This document shows positions 33,038-42,646 of a DNA stretch of 47,879 nt, piece after piece. Origin of the DNA: Candidatus Eiseniibacteriota bacterium (lineage in GTDB: Bacteria > Orphanbacterota > Orphanbacteria > Orphanbacterales > Orphanbacteraceae). The stretch lies in contig JAJRWB010000035.1 of the NCBI GenBank assembly GCA_024276995.1, positions 1 through 47,879 of the forward strand, in the 5' to 3' direction. Both the position numbers and the translations under genes were made by a program. Numbering within the stretch: position 1 is the first letter of the stretch; each line of letters opens with the position of its first letter. The notes below the pieces were generated by a model that worked only from the letters and a program-made list of their open reading frames with translations, searched no databases and had not been told where the DNA came from.

Positions 33038-33445
33038 ATGGGTGTCGTGAGAATCGATCACGTGGGCATCGCCGTGAAGAGCGTCGAGAGCGTCTCGCCG
33101 GCGATCCGGAATCTTTTCACTCCTCCGCCGGCGGAGGTGGAAGAGGTGGAGGACCAGGGAGTGCGCGCCGTCTCGTACCGGGCGGGTGAAGGTTCGATCG
33201 AATTCCTCGAAAGCCTCGACGAATCGAGTCCGGTAGGGCGTTACCTCGCACAGCGGGGGAGCGGGATTCATCATATCGCTCTCGAAGTGGACGACCTGGA
33301 GACGACCCTCGCCGACCTGAAGCGTGAAGGGGTCGTCCTCATCGACGAGAAGCCGCGCGCCGGGGCGGGGGGAAAACGGATCGCCTTCATTCACCCGAAA
33401 AGCGCCGGCGGAATCCTGATCGAACTGTGCGATCGTCCGGCATGA
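33038..33445 (+). CDS. mce: Methylmalonyl-CoA epimerase
   Basis: A 135-residue VOC/glyoxalase-fold metalloenzyme interconverting (R)- and (S)-methylmalonyl-CoA. Metal ligands expected for the family are seen: His8 (IDHVGIAV), His in GSGIHHIALEVDD (residues 78/79) and Glu129 (GILIELCDR). FIHPKSAGGILIEL is the usual C-terminal block. GGGGAGGG lies 3 bases before the ATG. Directly downstream of the mutase gene, it completes the propionyl/succinyl-CoA interconversion step. Its stop overlaps the next gene's ATG (ATGA). Confidence 0.94.
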   Translation: MGVVRIDHVGIAVKSVESVSPAIRNLFTPPPAEVEEVEDQGVRAVSYRAGEGSIEFLESLDESSPVGRYLAQRGSGIHHIALEVDDLETTLADLKREGVVLIDEKPRAGAGGKRIAFIHPKSAGGILIELCDRPA

Positions 33446-35242: not shown

Positions 35243-37894
35243 TTACTTCACGAGAACCATCTTCCGCGTCACCGATTCGCCGTCCGCCCTCAACCGCAGG
35301 AAGTAAACTCCCCCTGAAAGGGTCGAGCCGTTGTCGTCCTTTCCGTCCCAGTGGAGGGTATGGCCGCCCGCTTCCCGGTTTTCCCCCGGGAAAGCGCGCA
35401 CGCGACGGCCCGCGACGTCGTAGATCGCGATTTCCACGAACCCGGGCGACGCGAGGGTGTACTCGATGTCGGTGGAGGGGTTGAATGGATTCGGCGAGTT
35501 CCCGGCGGCGATGACCGCTCCGCCGGCGGCGAACAGCTCTTCCGCCCGTTCGTACGGGATCGCATCGACGATGGGACCCTTGAAGAAAGTAAGCCTTTCC
35601 CCCATCCCTTTCCGGAAGATCAGGCCGCGCGCGATGGCGCGTCCGTACGCATCCGCCCGGCCGTTTCCGCTCGCCAAGAGGACACCCGTCGCTTCGTCGG
35701 TGAGGGTCCAGCGGAAGTTCCCCCTCGGCGGGATGCCGAATTTCCCACCGGGCGCAGGTCCGACATCGACGGTGAGGCTTTCCGGAAACACCGCGCCGTA
35801 CGATCCCTCCGGAGGCGCATCGGGAATGAAGAGCGTGATCCCCCACTTCCGCCCGGTGTCGGTGATCGTTTCGCTCCCCCATGATAGGAAGGCGTTCATC
35901 TTCCCTTCCACGGCAACATCGAAATCATCGTCCGTCGACGCGTTAAGAAAGAAGGGAACCGTGACGCCCCGGGTGAAGAGGAGGTGGCTTTTCTGCGACT
36001 TGTCGTAACCGTACGGGTCGAGAAGCGCCACGCGCTGGGAGTGGCCATACATCCCCCATTGGAAGTTGAAGGGACGTTTCGTGTCGACCAGGGCGCGGGT
36101 GAAGCGCTTCACCTGATCCCAGCCGATGCCATCATCGTTCGTCCCGTTGGAGAAGGTGATCCACGGAGTCGCCGTCGAGCGGTGCGAGCGAAGCCACTTG
36201 TCATTGTCGTAGTAGTCCCATACCGAATACCGGTCGTTCGCCGTGATCGTCTCCCCGCCGAAACGCGCGGCGAACTCCTCGTTCGAGAAGGGGACCGCCC
36301 ATTCCTGCTCTCCCCAGGCGGCGGGGAACGACGAGGCGAAAGTCGGCGATTCCGAGGGGATATGGATGCCGACCCAGGAGATGAGATTGCTGAAGAGTTG
36401 ACCATTCCTCAGGCCGACGAGGGAGGTTCCCGCCCCTCCCATGGAAGAGCCGGAAAGGGTGATCCTATTGAGATCCACATTGTATAGAGGAGCGACGAAA
36501 TCGTAAACGAACGCCATCAGCCTGTGCATGGTGAACGGTTTCACCGATCCGGCGGCATACGATTTCAGCGTGCCGAGATTCTCATGGTAGCCGGTCCACC
36601 AATCCTGGAAGGGGAACTGGTTGCCCGCCACGAGGATGTGCCCCTGCTCGAAGGAGTACCACCAGCCGTAACCGCCGGTGAGGCTCCCCCCCCAGTTGTG
36701 GAGTGCAAGATCGACGCCCGGCTCGCTTACCGCGTAGTCGGACGAGGGCGTGACCACCAGATAGTTGAACGGGCTGCTCGGGAAGTTCGCCCGGGGAGGT
36801 GCCTCCCACTTCACATAGAAATATTGCCCCGACGAGGCGCCGTACATGAATTCCGTTGCATGCTCCTCCTTCAAGAGAAGCACCATGCCCGACCCGGGCG
36901 TTTCCACCACCGCCGCCGTGGCGTTCTCTCCCTCGGCGAGAGAGGAGAAGTCCTCGGCGCCGTCCACCGTGTGGCTTACGAAATACCAGGCGGTGTCGGT
37001 GCCGGCGCCCTCGTAGTGATCGACATAGATCCCCGTTCCGCCGGAAGCGGCGACGCCGTCGCCGATCGGCAGGCGGTAGACCGTACCGGCGCCGTACGTG
37101 GGATAGCAGTTCCCTCCCGGCCCGGGGAGCTTGGGATTCCATCCGCTGAGCGGCTTGATCTCGTCGACCAGCCGGGAACGGAGAATCGCGTCGGCGGTGA
37201 CGATCGGCTCGTCCGAGCGGTAGATCCGGTACCTCGTTTTCTGCGCGTCGTCGAGGGCCCCGCTCGTCTGGTAGAAGAGATCGCACGGCGCCGAATCGCC
37301 GGTCAGCGGCGGATCGACTTCTTCGAAGGTGATCATCGCGTCTCCCCTGTCGAAACGCACCGCCGCACCGGTCACCTGCGCGATCGATCCGGGAAGGGGA
37401 ACGTCGCAGAGCACATCGAGAGAGAGGCGCTCCCCCATGCCGGCGCCCGGGTCGGCGATGGAGAGATAAAGCGTCGTGCCTCCTCCCTCCAGAAGAGCGC
37501 GAACCGCTGCCGTCGCATCGAATGTGCGGTAGCGGGGCGCCACGAGCGAAAGAGCGGAGCCGCCCGTGCGTATCTCCATCGTCGTGGCGGCGAGATTGTT
37601 CATGCTCACATCGACGTAATCGAAGGAAACTCCCGGATCGAAGGTCGCCCTCGCCACCGAAGCCCCGGCGATGGCCGACAGATCGACGGTGATCGTCTCC
37701 CCCGATCTCTGGAGCGCGCCCGGATGGGTTCCTCCCCCGTGATTCGTGAAACTGTGCGTCGCCGCGACGGTCGCGACGGCCGCGGCCGCACCGGTCTGTG
37801 ACGCCACGAGGACCAGACAGGCGATCACCGCCGGCGCGATCCGCAGCACCCTCCGTTTCCTTCCTTCTCTTTTCGACGATCCTTTCCGTTCCAT
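35243..37894 (-). CDS. Secreted alpha/beta-hydrolase-like protein with FlgD-Ig/T9SS-type C-terminal domain
   Basis: An 883-residue exported protein. Signal peptide (VLRIAPAVIACLVLVASQTG, then AAAAVA), then a beta-rich region up to residue ~230 that includes the fragment TTLYLSIADPGAGMGERLSL, a fibronectin-like section (RYRIYRSDEPI, TDTAWYFVSHTVDG) and an alpha/beta-hydrolase-like core. The nucleophile elbow LSGSSMGGAG has Ser484 in GxSxG; a downstream NGTNDDGIGWDQ could supply Asp and GMYGHSQRV a His. Such triads occur in secreted esterases and depolymerases; substrate unknown. The C-terminal ~85 residues form a sorting/FlgD-Ig domain: NSPNPFNPSTDIEYTL, AIYDVAGRRVR, HTLHWDGKDDNGSTLSGGVY and KMVLVK. 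Stop TAA. Likely exported and surface-attached. Confidence 0.8.
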   Translation of the reverse strand: MERKGSSKREGRKRRVLRIAPAVIACLVLVASQTGAAAAVATVAATHSFTNHGGGTHPGALQRSGETITVDLSAIAGASVARATFDPGVSFDYVDVSMNNLAATTMEIRTGGSALSLVAPRYRTFDATAAVRALLEGGGTTLYLSIADPGAGMGERLSLDVLCDVPLPGSIAQVTGAAVRFDRGDAMITFEEVDPPLTGDSAPCDLFYQTSGALDDAQKTRYRIYRSDEPIVTADAILRSRLVDEIKPLSGWNPKLPGPGGNCYPTYGAGTVYRLPIGDGVAASGGTGIYVDHYEGAGTDTAWYFVSHTVDGAEDFSSLAEGENATAAVVETPGSGMVLLLKEEHATEFMYGASSGQYFYVKWEAPPRANFPSSPFNYLVVTPSSDYAVSEPGVDLALHNWGGSLTGGYGWWYSFEQGHILVAGNQFPFQDWWTGYHENLGTLKSYAAGSVKPFTMHRLMAFVYDFVAPLYNVDLNRITLSGSSMGGAGTSLVGLRNGQLFSNLISWVGIHIPSESPTFASSFPAAWGEQEWAVPFSNEEFAARFGGETITANDRYSVWDYYDNDKWLRSHRSTATPWITFSNGTNDDGIGWDQVKRFTRALVDTKRPFNFQWGMYGHSQRVALLDPYGYDKSQKSHLLFTRGVTVPFFLNASTDDDFDVAVEGKMNAFLSWGSETITDTGRKWGITLFIPDAPPEGSYGAVFPESLTVDVGPAPGGKFGIPPRGNFRWTLTDEATGVLLASGNGRADAYGRAIARGLIFRKGMGERLTFFKGPIVDAIPYERAEELFAAGGAVIAAGNSPNPFNPSTDIEYTLASPGFVEIAIYDVAGRRVRAFPGENREAGGHTLHWDGKDDNGSTLSGGVYFLRLRADGESVTRKMVLVK

Positions 37895-37996: not shown

Positions 37997-38986
37997 TTAC
38001 CGGATCATCACCATACGGCCGCCCTTCCGTTCACCGCCGGCATCGATGGTGTAGAAGTAGACGCCGCTCGCCGCCGACTTCCCCTCTTCGCTCCGTCCGT
38101 TCCACGTCACCGTGTGACGCCCTTCGGCGAGCGGTCGTCGGTCGATCAAAACGCGTACGAGCCGTCCCCCGGCGTCATACACGTTCAGCGTCACGGACGA
38201 GGCGACGCCGAGATCGAATGCGATCACCGTTTCCGGGTTGAACGGGTTCGGCTTGTTCCCTTCGATATGAAGCGCTCCGGGAACTCCACCCTCCGGTGAC
38301 GCGGTGGCCACGGCGGTGGGGAGACGGTACTCGTCCGCTCCGATGTCGGGAGCACCCGGAGAAATCGCGTCGCAGTCGATGTCGCGGAGCCTGTCCGGAT
38401 GGGGCGTGCCCGCATCGATGGCGGCCGATCCGGCCGCCAGATGAAGATCGTCCACGGCGGGGTCGAGAAAAGCCCCTGCCGAAACGTTTTCCATGTTAGT
38501 CACCGTCGAATTGGCGGCGCCGTCGGCGCCCCGATCGAAGACGATGACGCCGCCGAGAAGGTTGTTTTCCACCGTGTTCCCGCCGCCCGAGCTGCCGGAG
38601 ATCTCGATCGACGTCCCCGGTGATGTCGCCCCGAAGAAGATCGTGTTGTTCAAAACGAGCGCACTTTCGGCAAAGGCGAGTTCGAAGGCGGGAACGTCCG
38701 CGGCGCCGCCCGATACGATGTTCCCCCGGAGGAGACCGCCCGCGTGGCCGTCGGCCGCCTCGAAGTCGCCGAGTGCCACCGACCTGTCACAACGGACGAA
38801 CACATTCCGATCGGCCGTCGTTCCCGACGAACCTTCGTGGAAAAAGAGCGCCGTCGCGGGAGATGCCGTCCCGGACGGACTCGTGATGTCGCGAAAGACG
38901 CTGTTCCGCACGATCCAGCCGGTTCCGAAGCGGACATCGATGCCGCCGCCGCCGGTGGCGGCCGGCGGGATCGTGTCGCGCTCCAC
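37997..38986 (-). CDS. C-terminal half of beta-helix protein with sorting domain (downstream of in-frame TAG)
   Basis: 329 residues in the same reading frame as the gene ending at 39026. It continues the second beta-helix module (IVRNSVFRDITSPSG, VLNNTIFFGATSPGTSI, NTVENNLLGGVIVFD), closes with the choice-of-anchor style motif GAPDIGADEY, and ends with a FlgD-Ig/T9SS-like domain (GNKPNPFNPETVIAFDL, LNVYDAGGRLVRVL, HTVTWNGRSEEGKSAASGVY). It has no signal peptide and no proper start (first candidate GTG at 38986), so alone it should not be exported. It is best read as the 3-prime part of a single ~990-codon gene interrupted by TAG at 39026-39028. Confidence 0.7.
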   Translation of the reverse strand: MERDTIPPAATGGGGIDVRFGTGWIVRNSVFRDITSPSGTASPATALFFHEGSSGTTADRNVFVRCDRSVALGDFEAADGHAGGLLRGNIVSGGAADVPAFELAFAESALVLNNTIFFGATSPGTSIEISGSSGGGNTVENNLLGGVIVFDRGADGAANSTVTNMENVSAGAFLDPAVDDLHLAAGSAAIDAGTPHPDRLRDIDCDAISPGAPDIGADEYRLPTAVATASPEGGVPGALHIEGNKPNPFNPETVIAFDLGVASSVTLNVYDAGGRLVRVLIDRRPLAEGRHTVTWNGRSEEGKSAASGVYFYTIDAGGERKGGRMVMIR

Positions 38987-39025
38987 GAGCGAGCACTCGA
39001 TGATACCGCTGCTCCCCCCCGCCGA

Positions 39026-39028
39026 CTA
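39026..39028 (-). other. In-frame TAG splitting the beta-helix gene
   Basis: The codon series reads ...GGC ACG ATC GCG TAG TCG GCG..., and coding similarity resumes in the same frame immediately after. The neighbouring module has the equivalent loop without a stop. Genes at 27857, 33442 and 42927 in this window end in TAG, so TAG is a normal stop here. It is close to a run of seven G (minus strand), but an indel there would change frame and does not explain the stop. Confidence 0.75.
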
Positions 39029-40966
39029 CGCGATCGTGCCGATCGCATCGTCCCCGGCGTTCACCACGCGGATGTTGTGGAGGAGAAGAGCGTCGATCGT
39101 GCTGTAATACGCCACCAGGGATATGGCATCCGCCGCCACGTCGCGGATCGTCAAATCGGCGAGTGTCACGTTCTCGATGTTTCGCGCACCGAAGCTGTCG
39201 AACACGAATCCGAAGTCGCTCTCGTGGTTGCCGTAGAACACGACGCGGTCACGATCGCCGCCGAGAGAGCGGATTGTCACGTTCGATGTGTACAGATGGA
39301 TGTTGCCGAAGGGAGAGTCGCCGAGGAAATACTCGCCGTCCAATAGGAAGATCGTCCGTTCCCGGTTGTCGTTGTTCGTATGGAGATTGTAGAGCAAAAC
39401 CTGAAGATCGTACGCCGATCCCACCGTATCGAGGATCGCCCCCGCCCCGGGGGCGGGAAGAGGATCGCAATCGCACAGGTCGTACGGCGGCGCCGCCTCG
39501 GGAGGCGGAAAGAGATCGCCCAGGCCGGCCGGATCGATCGGAGGTCCGTCGTATCCGCCGTCGCACGGTCCGCCGGAGAACGGCCGCCCCGCGCGTTCGT
39601 CGGCGCCGATATCGGCGTGCCCGTCGATCACGCCTTCTCCGTCGATGTCGGCGCACATCTCGTCATACATCACACCCGCGTCGACGGCGACACTCCCCGG
39701 AGCGAGATGGAGATTCCCGTTCGCCACCGAGACGAACTGTTCCGCGGTCGCGTGTTCGATGTTCGCTTCGAACCGGTTCGCCGCGCCGCTCGCGCCGCCG
39801 CGAACGATAATCGAACGGCTGATGATGTTGTTCACCACGCGGTTCGATCTCGTATTCGACCCGAGAATGTCGATGCCGCGGTCGATATCGCCGGGCGACC
39901 AGATCGTGTTGTTCGCCACCACGGCGTTCACCGTGTTCGCCAGGGCGATCCCCTCATATGAGCCGAGCGATCCTTCCGGGTTGGCGTCGGAATAGCCGAG
40001 AATCATGTTGTTCCGGATCACTCCGCCGGTGTGATCGAGAAACGCCGCGTCATGATGCGACCAGTCGCCGAAGCTGATCCCCCTGTCGCAATCGATGATC
40101 CGGTTCCGCTCCACCACAGTGCCTACGGAGTTCGACCAGACGAGTACCGCGAAGCCGCTGATCCTCCCCGATTCCGGATGGGCCCGGATGTTCCGTATCG
40201 TGTTGTACCGCACCACCCAGTGATCTCCGCCGTGGATGTCGATCCCCTGGGTGTACCACCCCTCGTCGAGATGGGTCTCGTACTCGAGGAGAGAGCATGC
40301 CACCGTGCCGCTCGAAACGGGTTTCGGGTCCGAAAGCGACTCCGGGTTCACCTTGATGAGCTGCTCCCCCGAATTGACGAAATGAACGTTGTGAACCATC
40401 ACGTTTCGCGGATGGAATTCCCCTTGCACCGAAAGAAGATGATTCGATGCGTTTTGGATCGTGATGTCCGCGAGGGTGATATTCCACAGCGTATCGAGGT
40501 GGGTGGTGTAGTCGGAAATCATGAAGGCCTTGCCCACACCCGTTCCCATTCCACCGGCATCGAAGATCACATCATCCCTGTTTCCCGTCTCCGAGCGGAT
40601 CGTGATGTCGCTTCTCCCGATCTGGATTCCGATCCCCGAGCCGGCATAGGGCGACTGACGAAGATCGTAGTAGCCGGAACGAACGAGAATGGTAGTGCTC
40701 ATCGTCGCGTCGTTGATGACGCTCTGCAGACGCGCGAGATCGTCCACAACGATGACGGTATCGCTCACGGGCGTCACGTAGTCGCACATGCCCCCGTCCC
40801 ATCTCTCTCCTCCCGGTGACTGTCCGCCCCCCCCCGTGGCAGGGAGCCGATCCGATAGGGCGACAGAATATGTAGACAACAGAATGAACAGAACAACGCG
40901 GGTAAGACCACCAATCGAACAGGCTCCCGCGCCCCCCTTCTTCGAGTGTTCCCCTCTTCCCTTCAT
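39026..40966 (-). CDS. Secreted right-handed beta-helix protein, N-terminal part
   Basis: 646 residues before an in-frame TAG. A basic N-region and hydrophobic core (VVLFILLSTYSVAL) form the signal peptide. Module 1 (residues ~50-460) is a parallel beta-helix with repeated asparagine-ladder-like strands (ITLADITIQNASNHLL, VMVHNVHFVNSGEQLI, VVRYNTIRNIRAHP, VVNNIISRSIIVRG) and ends in ADIGADERAG. A Pro/Gly/Cys-rich linker (residues ~465-510) leads into module 2, which repeats the scheme (YTSNVTIRSLGGDRDRVVFY, LLLHNIRVVNAGDDAIG). Such folds are typical of polysaccharide lyases and adhesins; no catalytic motif could be assigned. The Shine-Dalgarno is the full AAGGAGGT, 9 bases before ATG 40966 (GTG 40969 also possible). 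Confidence 0.8.
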   Translation of the reverse strand: MKGRGEHSKKGGAGACSIGGLTRVVLFILLSTYSVALSDRLPATGGGGQSPGGERWDGGMCDYVTPVSDTVIVVDDLARLQSVINDATMSTTILVRSGYYDLRQSPYAGSGIGIQIGRSDITIRSETGNRDDVIFDAGGMGTGVGKAFMISDYTTHLDTLWNITLADITIQNASNHLLSVQGEFHPRNVMVHNVHFVNSGEQLIKVNPESLSDPKPVSSGTVACSLLEYETHLDEGWYTQGIDIHGGDHWVVRYNTIRNIRAHPESGRISGFAVLVWSNSVGTVVERNRIIDCDRGISFGDWSHHDAAFLDHTGGVIRNNMILGYSDANPEGSLGSYEGIALANTVNAVVANNTIWSPGDIDRGIDILGSNTRSNRVVNNIISRSIIVRGGASGAANRFEANIEHATAEQFVSVANGNLHLAPGSVAVDAGVMYDEMCADIDGEGVIDGHADIGADERAGRPFSGGPCDGGYDGPPIDPAGLGDLFPPPEAAPPYDLCDCDPLPAPGAGAILDTVGSAYDLQVLLYNLHTNNDNRERTIFLLDGEYFLGDSPFGNIHLYTSNVTIRSLGGDRDRVVFYGNHESDFGFVFDSFGARNIENVTLADLTIRDVAADAISLVAYYSTIDALLLHNIRVVNAGDDAIGTIA

Positions 40967-40969
40967 CAC

Positions 40970-41411
40970 GTGGGACCTCCTTTTTCCATCATTGCCGATC
41001 GATCCCGCAAAACCGTCATCCTCCTCAGTGCACCATCGGTACCCTGGAAACGGAATCGCGAAGAACGCACATCGGCGATTGCATAAGATATGCCGTTGAA
41101 GATTCGCTATGTAACACTTCAGGTATACGGCGTTTATTGCGGGCCGTACCGGTGGCGGGGAAGCCTGGTTGCCGGAGTCGGGACGCGGGGAAGTGCGCCG
41201 CCTGTTCGATGAGCCACGGAGCCAACCGGCGAGGGGAATTGTACCTCAGGGGCGCTGTTTTGTAAAGAGGGAAACCGGCGCGTTTGCGGGCGATTCACCT
41301 CAAGTTCGAACGAATGAGTGACGATTGATCTGAATGGGCAGCCGTCAGGCCGCCCGCCGGAGGCGCGATCGACCGTCGTCGTCCCGGCCGGGACCGCCAA
41401 TGGAGGTATTC
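40970..41411. other. Divergent intergenic region, beta-helix gene / tail-tube-like pair
   Basis: About 440 bp without a gene. The left third (41050-41140) is AT-rich and probably carries the beta-helix promoter. The middle (41145-41230) is GC-rich with several short complementary stretches (for example GGTTGCCGG and CCAACCGGCG). Structured leader RNA is possible but no known riboswitch class fits. A weak plus-strand promoter candidate (TTGTAC 41239-41244, 16 bp, TGTAAA 41261-41266) precedes a ~140-nt leader to the first tube gene. Confidence 0.5.
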
Positions 41412-41981
41412 ATGATGAAAAGGCCGAAACCGTTCACCACCGCGGCGGCGGTTGTCGCCCTGATCGCCCTGAACGGGACGTTTCCCTCCGGCCGGTGCCC
41501 GGCCGGAGGCGGAGCGATCACGGGGGACGGATTGAAGGTGGTGGTGAAATGGGATGGAAAGGTGATCCCCGGAATCGCCCGCGTATCCGCGCTGAGACGG
41601 ACCACGGAAGTGCTCGTCCACCGTTCCGGAGGCGACCCGTCGATGTCGCGGAAATCTCCCGGTCGGTCCGATTATCCTCCGCTGGTGCTCGAAAGGGAGC
41701 GAACCACGGACACCGCTTTCGAAGAGTGGGCGAACAAGACGTGGAACTTCGGCGCCGGCCTCGGAACCGAGTCTTCGCTCAAAGATTTTCGGAAGGACGT
41801 GATCATCGAGTTCTACGACTCGGACGGCAATCTCACGTCCCGATTCCTCGTTTTCCGGTGTTGGCCCTCTGAATACGCGCCCATGGGCGATTACGGCGCG
41901 GGCGATCCGGCATCGGGCATGGAAACGCTCGTTCTGCAATACGAGGGGTGGGAGCGGGATTACTCCGCCGGCGCACCGTGA
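41412..41981 (+). CDS. Exported phage T4 gp19/tail-tube-like protein (copy A)
   Basis: A 189-residue protein: Sec-type signal peptide (MMKRPKPFTTAAAVVALIAL) and then a tail-tube (T4 gp19, Hcp-fold) domain. Family hallmarks seen: an N-terminal strand with KWDGKVIPGIARVSAL (matching FxVEIDG...GFxEVSGL), HRSGGDPSMSRKSPG (matching REGG...RKxPG), LVLERERTTD (matching LxLKRGxT), WANKTWNF, DVIIEFYDSDGN, FRCWPSEY (matching FxNAWPxKW) and ETLVLQYEGWERD (matching ETLELAHEG). GGAGG is 5 bases before ATG 41412. No sheath, baseplate or ATPase gene is near. Cys29 and Cys150 are present; Cys29 is not in a lipobox. Function unknown; export is the odd feature, as known tail tubes assemble in the cytoplasm. 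Confidence 0.8.
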   Translation: MMKRPKPFTTAAAVVALIALNGTFPSGRCPAGGGAITGDGLKVVVKWDGKVIPGIARVSALRRTTEVLVHRSGGDPSMSRKSPGRSDYPPLVLERERTTDTAFEEWANKTWNFGAGLGTESSLKDFRKDVIIEFYDSDGNLTSRFLVFRCWPSEYAPMGDYGAGDPASGMETLVLQYEGWERDYSAGAP

Positions 41982-42052
41982 ACCGCCGGCGCCCGATCGA
42001 TCTCCCGGCACCGAACCGGTCGACCGGCACGACTCGGCATGGAGGAATGGCA

Positions 42053-42646
42053 ATGTCTCAAAAACTCGCTTCGATTCTATTCGTTTCGGCGGCGCTCCTG
42101 ATCGCCGCGGCCACCACGGTGGAGGCGGCCGATTTCGCCGTGAACCCGTCACGGTTCGATCCGTATAAACAAAGCAAGTTCCGCGTGAAATGGGACGGCA
42201 AGTACGTTTCCGGAGTGTTCCGCGTGAGCGGTCTGAGCAGGACGACACAGGTCGTTTCCCACCGATCGGGAAGCGAAGTGAGCCTGGTGAGAAAGTCGCC
42301 CGGCGAGACCGGCTATGATCCGATCGTTCTCGAAAGGGGACGGACCCACGACGAGGCGTTCGAAAAATGGGCGAACAAAGTGTGGAACTTCGGTTCCGGC
42401 GCCGGCTCGGAAAGCTCCTTGGGTGATTTCCGCAAGGATATCATGATCGAACTGTACAATGAGGCGGGCCAGCTGGTGATGGCGTTAAAGGTGTATCGTT
42501 GCTGGCCGTCGAAATATGTCGCTCTCTCCGAACTGGACGCCAACGACACGCAGGTCGCCGTGGAGTCGATCACCCTCGAACATGAAGGGTGGGAGAGAGA
42601 TTATGAAATCACCGAGCCGGCGGAACCGACGTTCACCGAACCTTGA
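42053..42646 (+). CDS. Exported phage T4 gp19/tail-tube-like protein (copy B)
   Basis: A 197-residue paralogue of the preceding gene. Clear signal peptide (KLASILFVSAALLIAAATTV, then EA|AD; predicted cleavage after Ala25). The mature part reads FRVKWDGKYVSGVFRVSGLS, HRSGSEVSLVRKSPGE, IVLERGRTHDEAFEKWANKV, DIMIELYNEAGQ, YRCWPSKY, and ESITLEHEGWERDY. Residues 42-184 align with copy A without a single gap and with the same numbering; I count about 80 identical positions by eye. A Glu/Pro/Thr tail (EITEPAEPTFTEP) is unique to this copy. GGAGG lies 7 bases before ATG 42053. It starts 71 bp after copy A, on the same strand, probably co-transcribed. A tandem duplication with signal peptides kept. 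Confidence 0.83.
   Translation: MSQKLASILFVSAALLIAAATTVEAADFAVNPSRFDPYKQSKFRVKWDGKYVSGVFRVSGLSRTTQVVSHRSGSEVSLVRKSPGETGYDPIVLERGRTHDEAFEKWANKVWNFGSGAGSESSLGDFRKDIMIELYNEAGQLVMALKVYRCWPSKYVALSELDANDTQVAVESITLEHEGWERDYEITEPAEPTFTEP

Follow-up and report, generated by a model that had tools for sequence, protein, structure and literature searches.

An in-frame TAG in a two-module beta-helix gene of Candidatus Eiseniibacteriota is probably accidental nonsense, most likely a consensus error

A long minus-strand reading frame for a putative surface protein in Candidatus Eiseniibacteriota (assembly GCA_024276995.1) is divided by a single TAG, which raises the question of whether this codon separates two genes, is decoded as an amino acid, controls the length of the product or is an accident. 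The window analysed is the whole 47,879-nt stretch of contig JAJRWB010000035.1. The frame at 37997-40969 comprises 990 codons followed by TAA, and its sole internal stop is the TAG at codon 648 (Table 1). The first-pass annotation had joined the two open frames on either side into one secreted beta-helix gene and had listed several causes of the interruption without choosing among them.

Both parts of the interrupted frame are coding. The codon score per codon was 0.155 for the start and module 1, 0.243 for module 2 before the TAG, 0.137 after the TAG and 0.149 for the C-terminal domain, GC3 stayed at 0.76-0.80 over all parts of the gene, and the codon usage on either side of the stop resembles that of the neighbouring genes. 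Moreover, the alignment of module 2 with module 1 (378 columns, E 2e-53) crosses the TAG in-frame, and module 2 aligns in the same single frame with the one close homologue found, the L045 protein described below. The otherwise unbroken frame and these alignments across the TAG place the continuity far beyond chance, bearing out the earlier reading of one gene in one frame, coding on both sides of a single stop, with homology that continues past it.

Table 1. Coordinates in the window of the interrupted gene, its parts and the adjoining gene
Feature	Position	Strand	Remark
Whole interrupted reading frame	37997..40966	-	ATG at 40966, TAA at 37997-37999
In-frame GTG	40969	-	adjacent to the ATG at 40966
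Shine-Dalgarno-like AGGAGGT	40975..40981	-	upstream of the ATG at 40966; coordinates counted by eye
N-terminal signal-peptide-like segment	40850..40966	-	hydrophobic stretch
Beta-helix module 1, residues 62-470	39560..40786	-	64% identical to the single module of the L045 protein
Beta-helix module 2, about residues 499-881	38327..39475	-	contains the TAG; 33% identical to module 1
In-frame TAG, codon 648	39026..39028	-	loop within the module 2 model
C-terminal FlgD_ig / Por_Secre_tail-like domain, residues 897-990	38000..38281	-	profile matches
Next gene, esterase-like with FlgD_ig	35243..37894	-	domain matches; L045 counterpart also adjoins, homology by eye

The ends of the frame fit a single exported product. 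The N-terminal part carries a hydrophobic segment with a 13-residue Kyte-Doolittle mean of 2.27, and the part after the TAG ends in a domain matching Pfam FlgD_ig (E 3.3e-10, 40.2 against a cut-off of 27), in agreement with the earlier assignment of the signal-like start to the first part and the C-terminal domain to the second. As a sorting domain of Type IX cargo, this domain is recognised by the NCBIfam T9SS type A model TIGR04183, barely over its cut-off (24.4 bits against 23), and falls below that of Pfam Por_Secre_tail (18.8 against 27). The interrupted protein gave 105 matches in its own genome. One is the gene itself, the only match with an internal stop, and the remaining 104 fall on the C-terminal region. 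That the TAG instead separates a truncated secreted beta-helix protein from a downstream gene starting at an internal GTG is highly unlikely. An in-frame GTG does lie at 38986, 14 codons past the TAG, but none of the five listed internal starts has a good ribosome-binding site by eye, the 80 residues past the TAG contain no comparable signal-like segment (Kyte-Doolittle maximum 1.09), and the cut would fall in the middle of a beta-helix module. An independent second gene was rejected on the missing signal and the missing good start.

AlphaFold2 models built from three-row alignments gave a mean pLDDT of 72.6 and a pTM of 0.78 for module 1, and 72.0 and 0.75 for module 2 with the TAG taken as Gln. 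From these models of middling confidence, both modules are predicted to be right-handed beta-helices, and the TAG corresponds to residue 152 of the modelled module 2 piece, between the predicted strands E147-151 and E157-162. The best PDB fold matches included the alginate lyase 6kfn (TM by target 0.69 for both modules), PL6 enzymes, and beta-helix lyases for alginate and chondroitin. The predicted fold of both modules is of the kind found in these lyases and in choice-of-anchor Q proteins. Sequence identity to the solved structures is 7-16% among the matches listed, and no enzyme activity can be claimed. At the sequence level, no Pfam beta-helix family matched either half of the gene at E 0.01, choice_anch_Q gave a weak match under its cut-off, and a PDB sequence search with module 1 returned no match.

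A scan of the GTDB collection, which detects close relatives only and may have left out the organism's own genome, found a sole homologue of the helix region, in a Candidatus Eisenbacteria MAG (L045). Its protein (L045:5926-7593) has 555 residues, with one module followed by a C-terminal domain, and lacks module 2. In the module alignment, the position of the TAG is occupied by Glu in module 1 and by Ala in the L045 protein, the latter having no module 2 orthologue. The helix region found no match in the remaining six family genomes (the phylum set consists of the same seven genomes), and in the phylum of L045 a match was present in 7 of 47 genomes, six of them weak and partial.

The lesion is not confined to this gene. 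The sample surveyed consisted of the window and 60 stretches of 20 kb, 1.25 Mb of the 3.76-Mb genome, and yielded 20 further single in-frame stops in genes with homology on both sides, or 21 with the interrupted gene; by extrapolation, the whole genome would carry roughly 60. A codon-usage script returned 64 same-frame continuations past gene ends, the interrupted gene included, most of which are neighbouring genes by eye, and the joining of two frames as one protein was partly made by eye. The Pfam scan covered 23 own-genome places, namely about 20 of these 64 (some as examples of neighbouring genes) and three found by homology. A single Pfam domain extends over the stop at 13 of the 23 places, a number that the roughly 44 script candidates outside the scan could only raise. 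The domains so interrupted belong to FlgK, a family 9 glycosyltransferase, an M28 peptidase, a group 1 glycosyltransferase, two sulfatases, a sigma-54 activator, Lon, McsB, AtpB, an aldehyde dehydrogenase, an ABC substrate-binding protein and the Fis-type HTH that ends a second sigma-54 activator; for this last one and for one of the sulfatases, the stop lies close to the domain edge. Homologues cross seven more stops, at L176, L104, L106 (two), L125:850, L105 (a single homologue) and L127.

Stops in conserved genes lie, among others, at L178:12700, L107:16329, L168:18474, L169:3027, L123:14446, L113:1869, L117:17908, L118:6038, L182:19748 and L136:8220; the genes at these loci include AtpB, FlgK, McsB, Lon and sigma-54 activators (sites on L178, L107, L168, L169 and L123) as well as M28, glycosyltransferase and sulfatase genes. 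AtpB has a single match in the genome and this match bears a TAG, and for Lon the stop is in one copy. AtpB, FlgK, McsB, Lon and the other stop-bearing genes will come out split in whatever annotation is made of this MAG. Among the titles listed in literature searches, none dealt with stray stops in this group.

As controls, 400 kb each of three further genomes (G001, G002 and G004) were run through the same script, yielding 16, 7 and 18 candidates. All 41 were scanned, and in none did the best-scoring Pfam domain extend over the stop; the tool does not display further stretches of repeat families. Per gene end, this amounts to 13 of 965 in the organism's own genome against 0 of 861 in the controls (Fisher p 0.0003), where the own-genome places had been picked by eye or homology and the control candidates were unpicked. 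A looser automatic count, in which every homologue that ran past a called gene end was recorded and weak flanks were allowed, did not separate the genomes (14/965 own, 4/305 in G001 and 4/254 in G002). Half of its 14 own-genome rows had a non-coding score after the stop and six belong to the set of 21, and seven of the eight control rows were scanned against Pfam and showed no domain across the stop.

Two further comparisons were made at the level of shared homologues. In a two-way comparison with G004 at identities of at least 45%, over about 170 kb each way, the count was four stops for the own genome and zero for G004 (p about 0.06), under a flank rule of at least 11 identical residues of 25 on each side that was set after the rows had been seen; one G004 row with 11 and 10 identical flank residues looked antisense. 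With homologues drawn from the same three samples, 9 of the 19 printed own-genome stop rows were judged real (eight at once, the one on L127 later), against 0/12 in G001 and 0/4 in G002. Frameshift-like breaks, taken as printed, numbered one in the own genome and two each in G001 and G002. The single own-genome break is at L171 near 16875, where the affected sequence is homologous to a long protein of G001. In the search that gave the single AtpB match, no internal stop occurred in the 21 matches of the relatives; in a further search, among the matches listed, one relative's match (G006, to the L104 fragment) contains a TGA, its position unchecked.

The identity of the stray stops bears on whether TAG is a sense codon here. 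The 21 comprise 13 TAG, 6 TAA and 2 TGA, and uniform substitution acting on the genome's own codon usage predicts 11.9, 5.1 and 4.0 (p 0.53); an earlier set of 19 misfitted the gene-end usage of the genome (p 2.6e-6). Since GC-rich codon usage by itself makes TAG common among stray stops, TAG need not be special. Reassignment of TAG to an amino acid in this organism, to which the 13 TAG among 21 could also point, is extremely unlikely. Gene ends in the sample are 234 TAG, 626 TGA and 105 TAA (965 called genes), TAA and TGA also occur inside genes, and the residues of relatives vary from site to site. Within the window, the first-pass annotation had taken TAG to end three other genes; this holds for 27857 and 42927 but could not be confirmed for 33442, as the plus-strand frame ending at 33445 stops with TGA. 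Its argument against general recoding is upheld by the sample.

The decoding machinery leads to the same side. No CUA anticodon appeared among 43 tRNA-model matches (ARAGORN on the surrounding stretches), a set possibly incomplete as tRNA-Ala(TGC) and tRNA-Ile(GAT) were also unseen, PylS had no match in the genome, and RF1 scored over its curated cut-off and carries no internal stop. A suppressor-tRNA pattern matched the genome five times, against 13 times for a control pattern (6 forward, 7 reverse), and two of the five matches fell within tRNA-Glu genes, away from the anticodon. Amber-recoding systems, as in phages and pyrrolysine organisms, also present an in-frame TAG in an open frame, but here TAG terminates about a quarter of the genes, the other two stops are hit as well, and neither a CUA tRNA nor a PylS match was detected. 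General recoding was rejected on the use of TAG as an ordinary terminator, RF1, the missing CUA tRNA and PylS, and the varied residues in relatives.

Programmed read-through, in which some ribosomes pass the TAG and yield a long anchored form beside a short soluble one, is very improbable. The frame is open and coding beyond the stop, and the 120 nt following it fold somewhat better than shuffled sequences (z -1.88, with 9 of 200 shuffles as good), but 7 of 48 windows along the gene attain the same z, those 120 nt scored -1.53 in a control script, and with the window centred on the stop the value was -0.09. The RNA structure was set aside as weak and not special within the gene. The tRNA, PylS and RF1 results likewise speak against such a mechanism, like stops are present in genes with no need for such control, and module 2 is missing from the one close homologue found, so that conservation of the codon cannot be shown. 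Still less probable is that ribosomes read all three stops unusually often without a suppressor tRNA, with AtpB, FlgK and the surface protein being made from interrupted frames. Seen against the rest of the genome, an attractive case for read-through becomes a likely error or chance mutation, and the lesson is that a single in-frame stop should be weighed against the genome-wide stop load before a control mechanism is proposed.

Between error and mutation, the nature of the substitutions offers some guidance. At the stop sites, relatives carry Tyr in AtpB (6/6), Ser in FlgK (4/4), and Glu (4/6) or Asp (2/6) in McsB, and mixed residues in M28. For all seven sites at which a former residue was ventured, the change is a transversion by the author's reading, the M28, L117, aldehyde dehydrogenase and L176 sites having been left out of the tally as too mixed. 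This has a p of 0.008 if half of mutations are transitions and of 0.25 without transition bias, and the pattern leans, as weak evidence, away from ordinary mutation.

A real nonsense mutation, fixed or polymorphic, that made the gene a fresh pseudogene in a genome of unusual nonsense load (for example with a mutator background) is possible but rather unlikely. The intact flanking frame and unchanged codon usage are those of a very recent lesion, random true mutations predict the scatter of stops equally well, and the gene looks dispensable, its helix region being unmatched in all six family relatives. In decaying genes, however, frameshifts are usually at least as common, and here they are not raised; the transversions count against it as well, and selection should protect the only AtpB match, FlgK, McsB and the Lon copy. 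Within one gene, real nonsense alleles would look alike; in AtpB, FlgK, McsB and Lon together they are hard to accept. If the stops in AtpB, FlgK and McsB were true, the organism would tolerate nonsense on a massive scale and would well deserve study.

Accidental nonsense, and most likely a consensus error of the assembled genome, is therefore the reading that probably holds for the TAG. Homology in the same frame lies on both sides of it and like stops lie in unrelated genes. The recurrence of the same lesion genome-wide, in unrelated genes and as TAG, TAA and TGA alike, favours sequence error or nonsense mutation among the causes listed earlier, and the programmed, phase-variable-like read-through also listed there found no positive support. 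Scattered substitution-type stops that include AtpB, frameshifts that are not raised and a normal termination machinery are what consensus errors give. An accidental single-base substitution would have produced the TAG in one secreted two-module beta-helix gene, one of many genes hit in this way, and the stop would be carried by the consensus rather than by the cell. The frame is probably uninterrupted in the cell and may yield one exported and anchored protein, in which two beta-helices are followed by a C-terminal domain for anchoring or sorting. Assembled genomes in general contain both genes broken by nonsense codons and substitution errors in the consensus, and these likewise show single in-frame stops of all three kinds in otherwise intact frames of unrelated genes; the present genome differs from the usual case in its high rate, 21 in 1.25 Mb, with frameshifts not raised. 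A point against consensus error is the assembly itself, which has 81 contigs and 96% completeness and gives no hint of being poor.

The surroundings of the gene offered two observations. The beta-helix gene and its esterase-like neighbour are paired in L045 too, with one module there and two here, so that within this conserved pair the L045 gene and 37997-40966 apparently differ by the gain or loss of a module. On the plus strand, two proteins of the T4 gp19-like tail-tube family are encoded in tandem at 41334-41981 and 41948-42646 (PF06841, E 1.1e-26 and 1.7e-39), and both have an apparent N-terminal signal peptide by eye, which is odd for a tail-tube protein.
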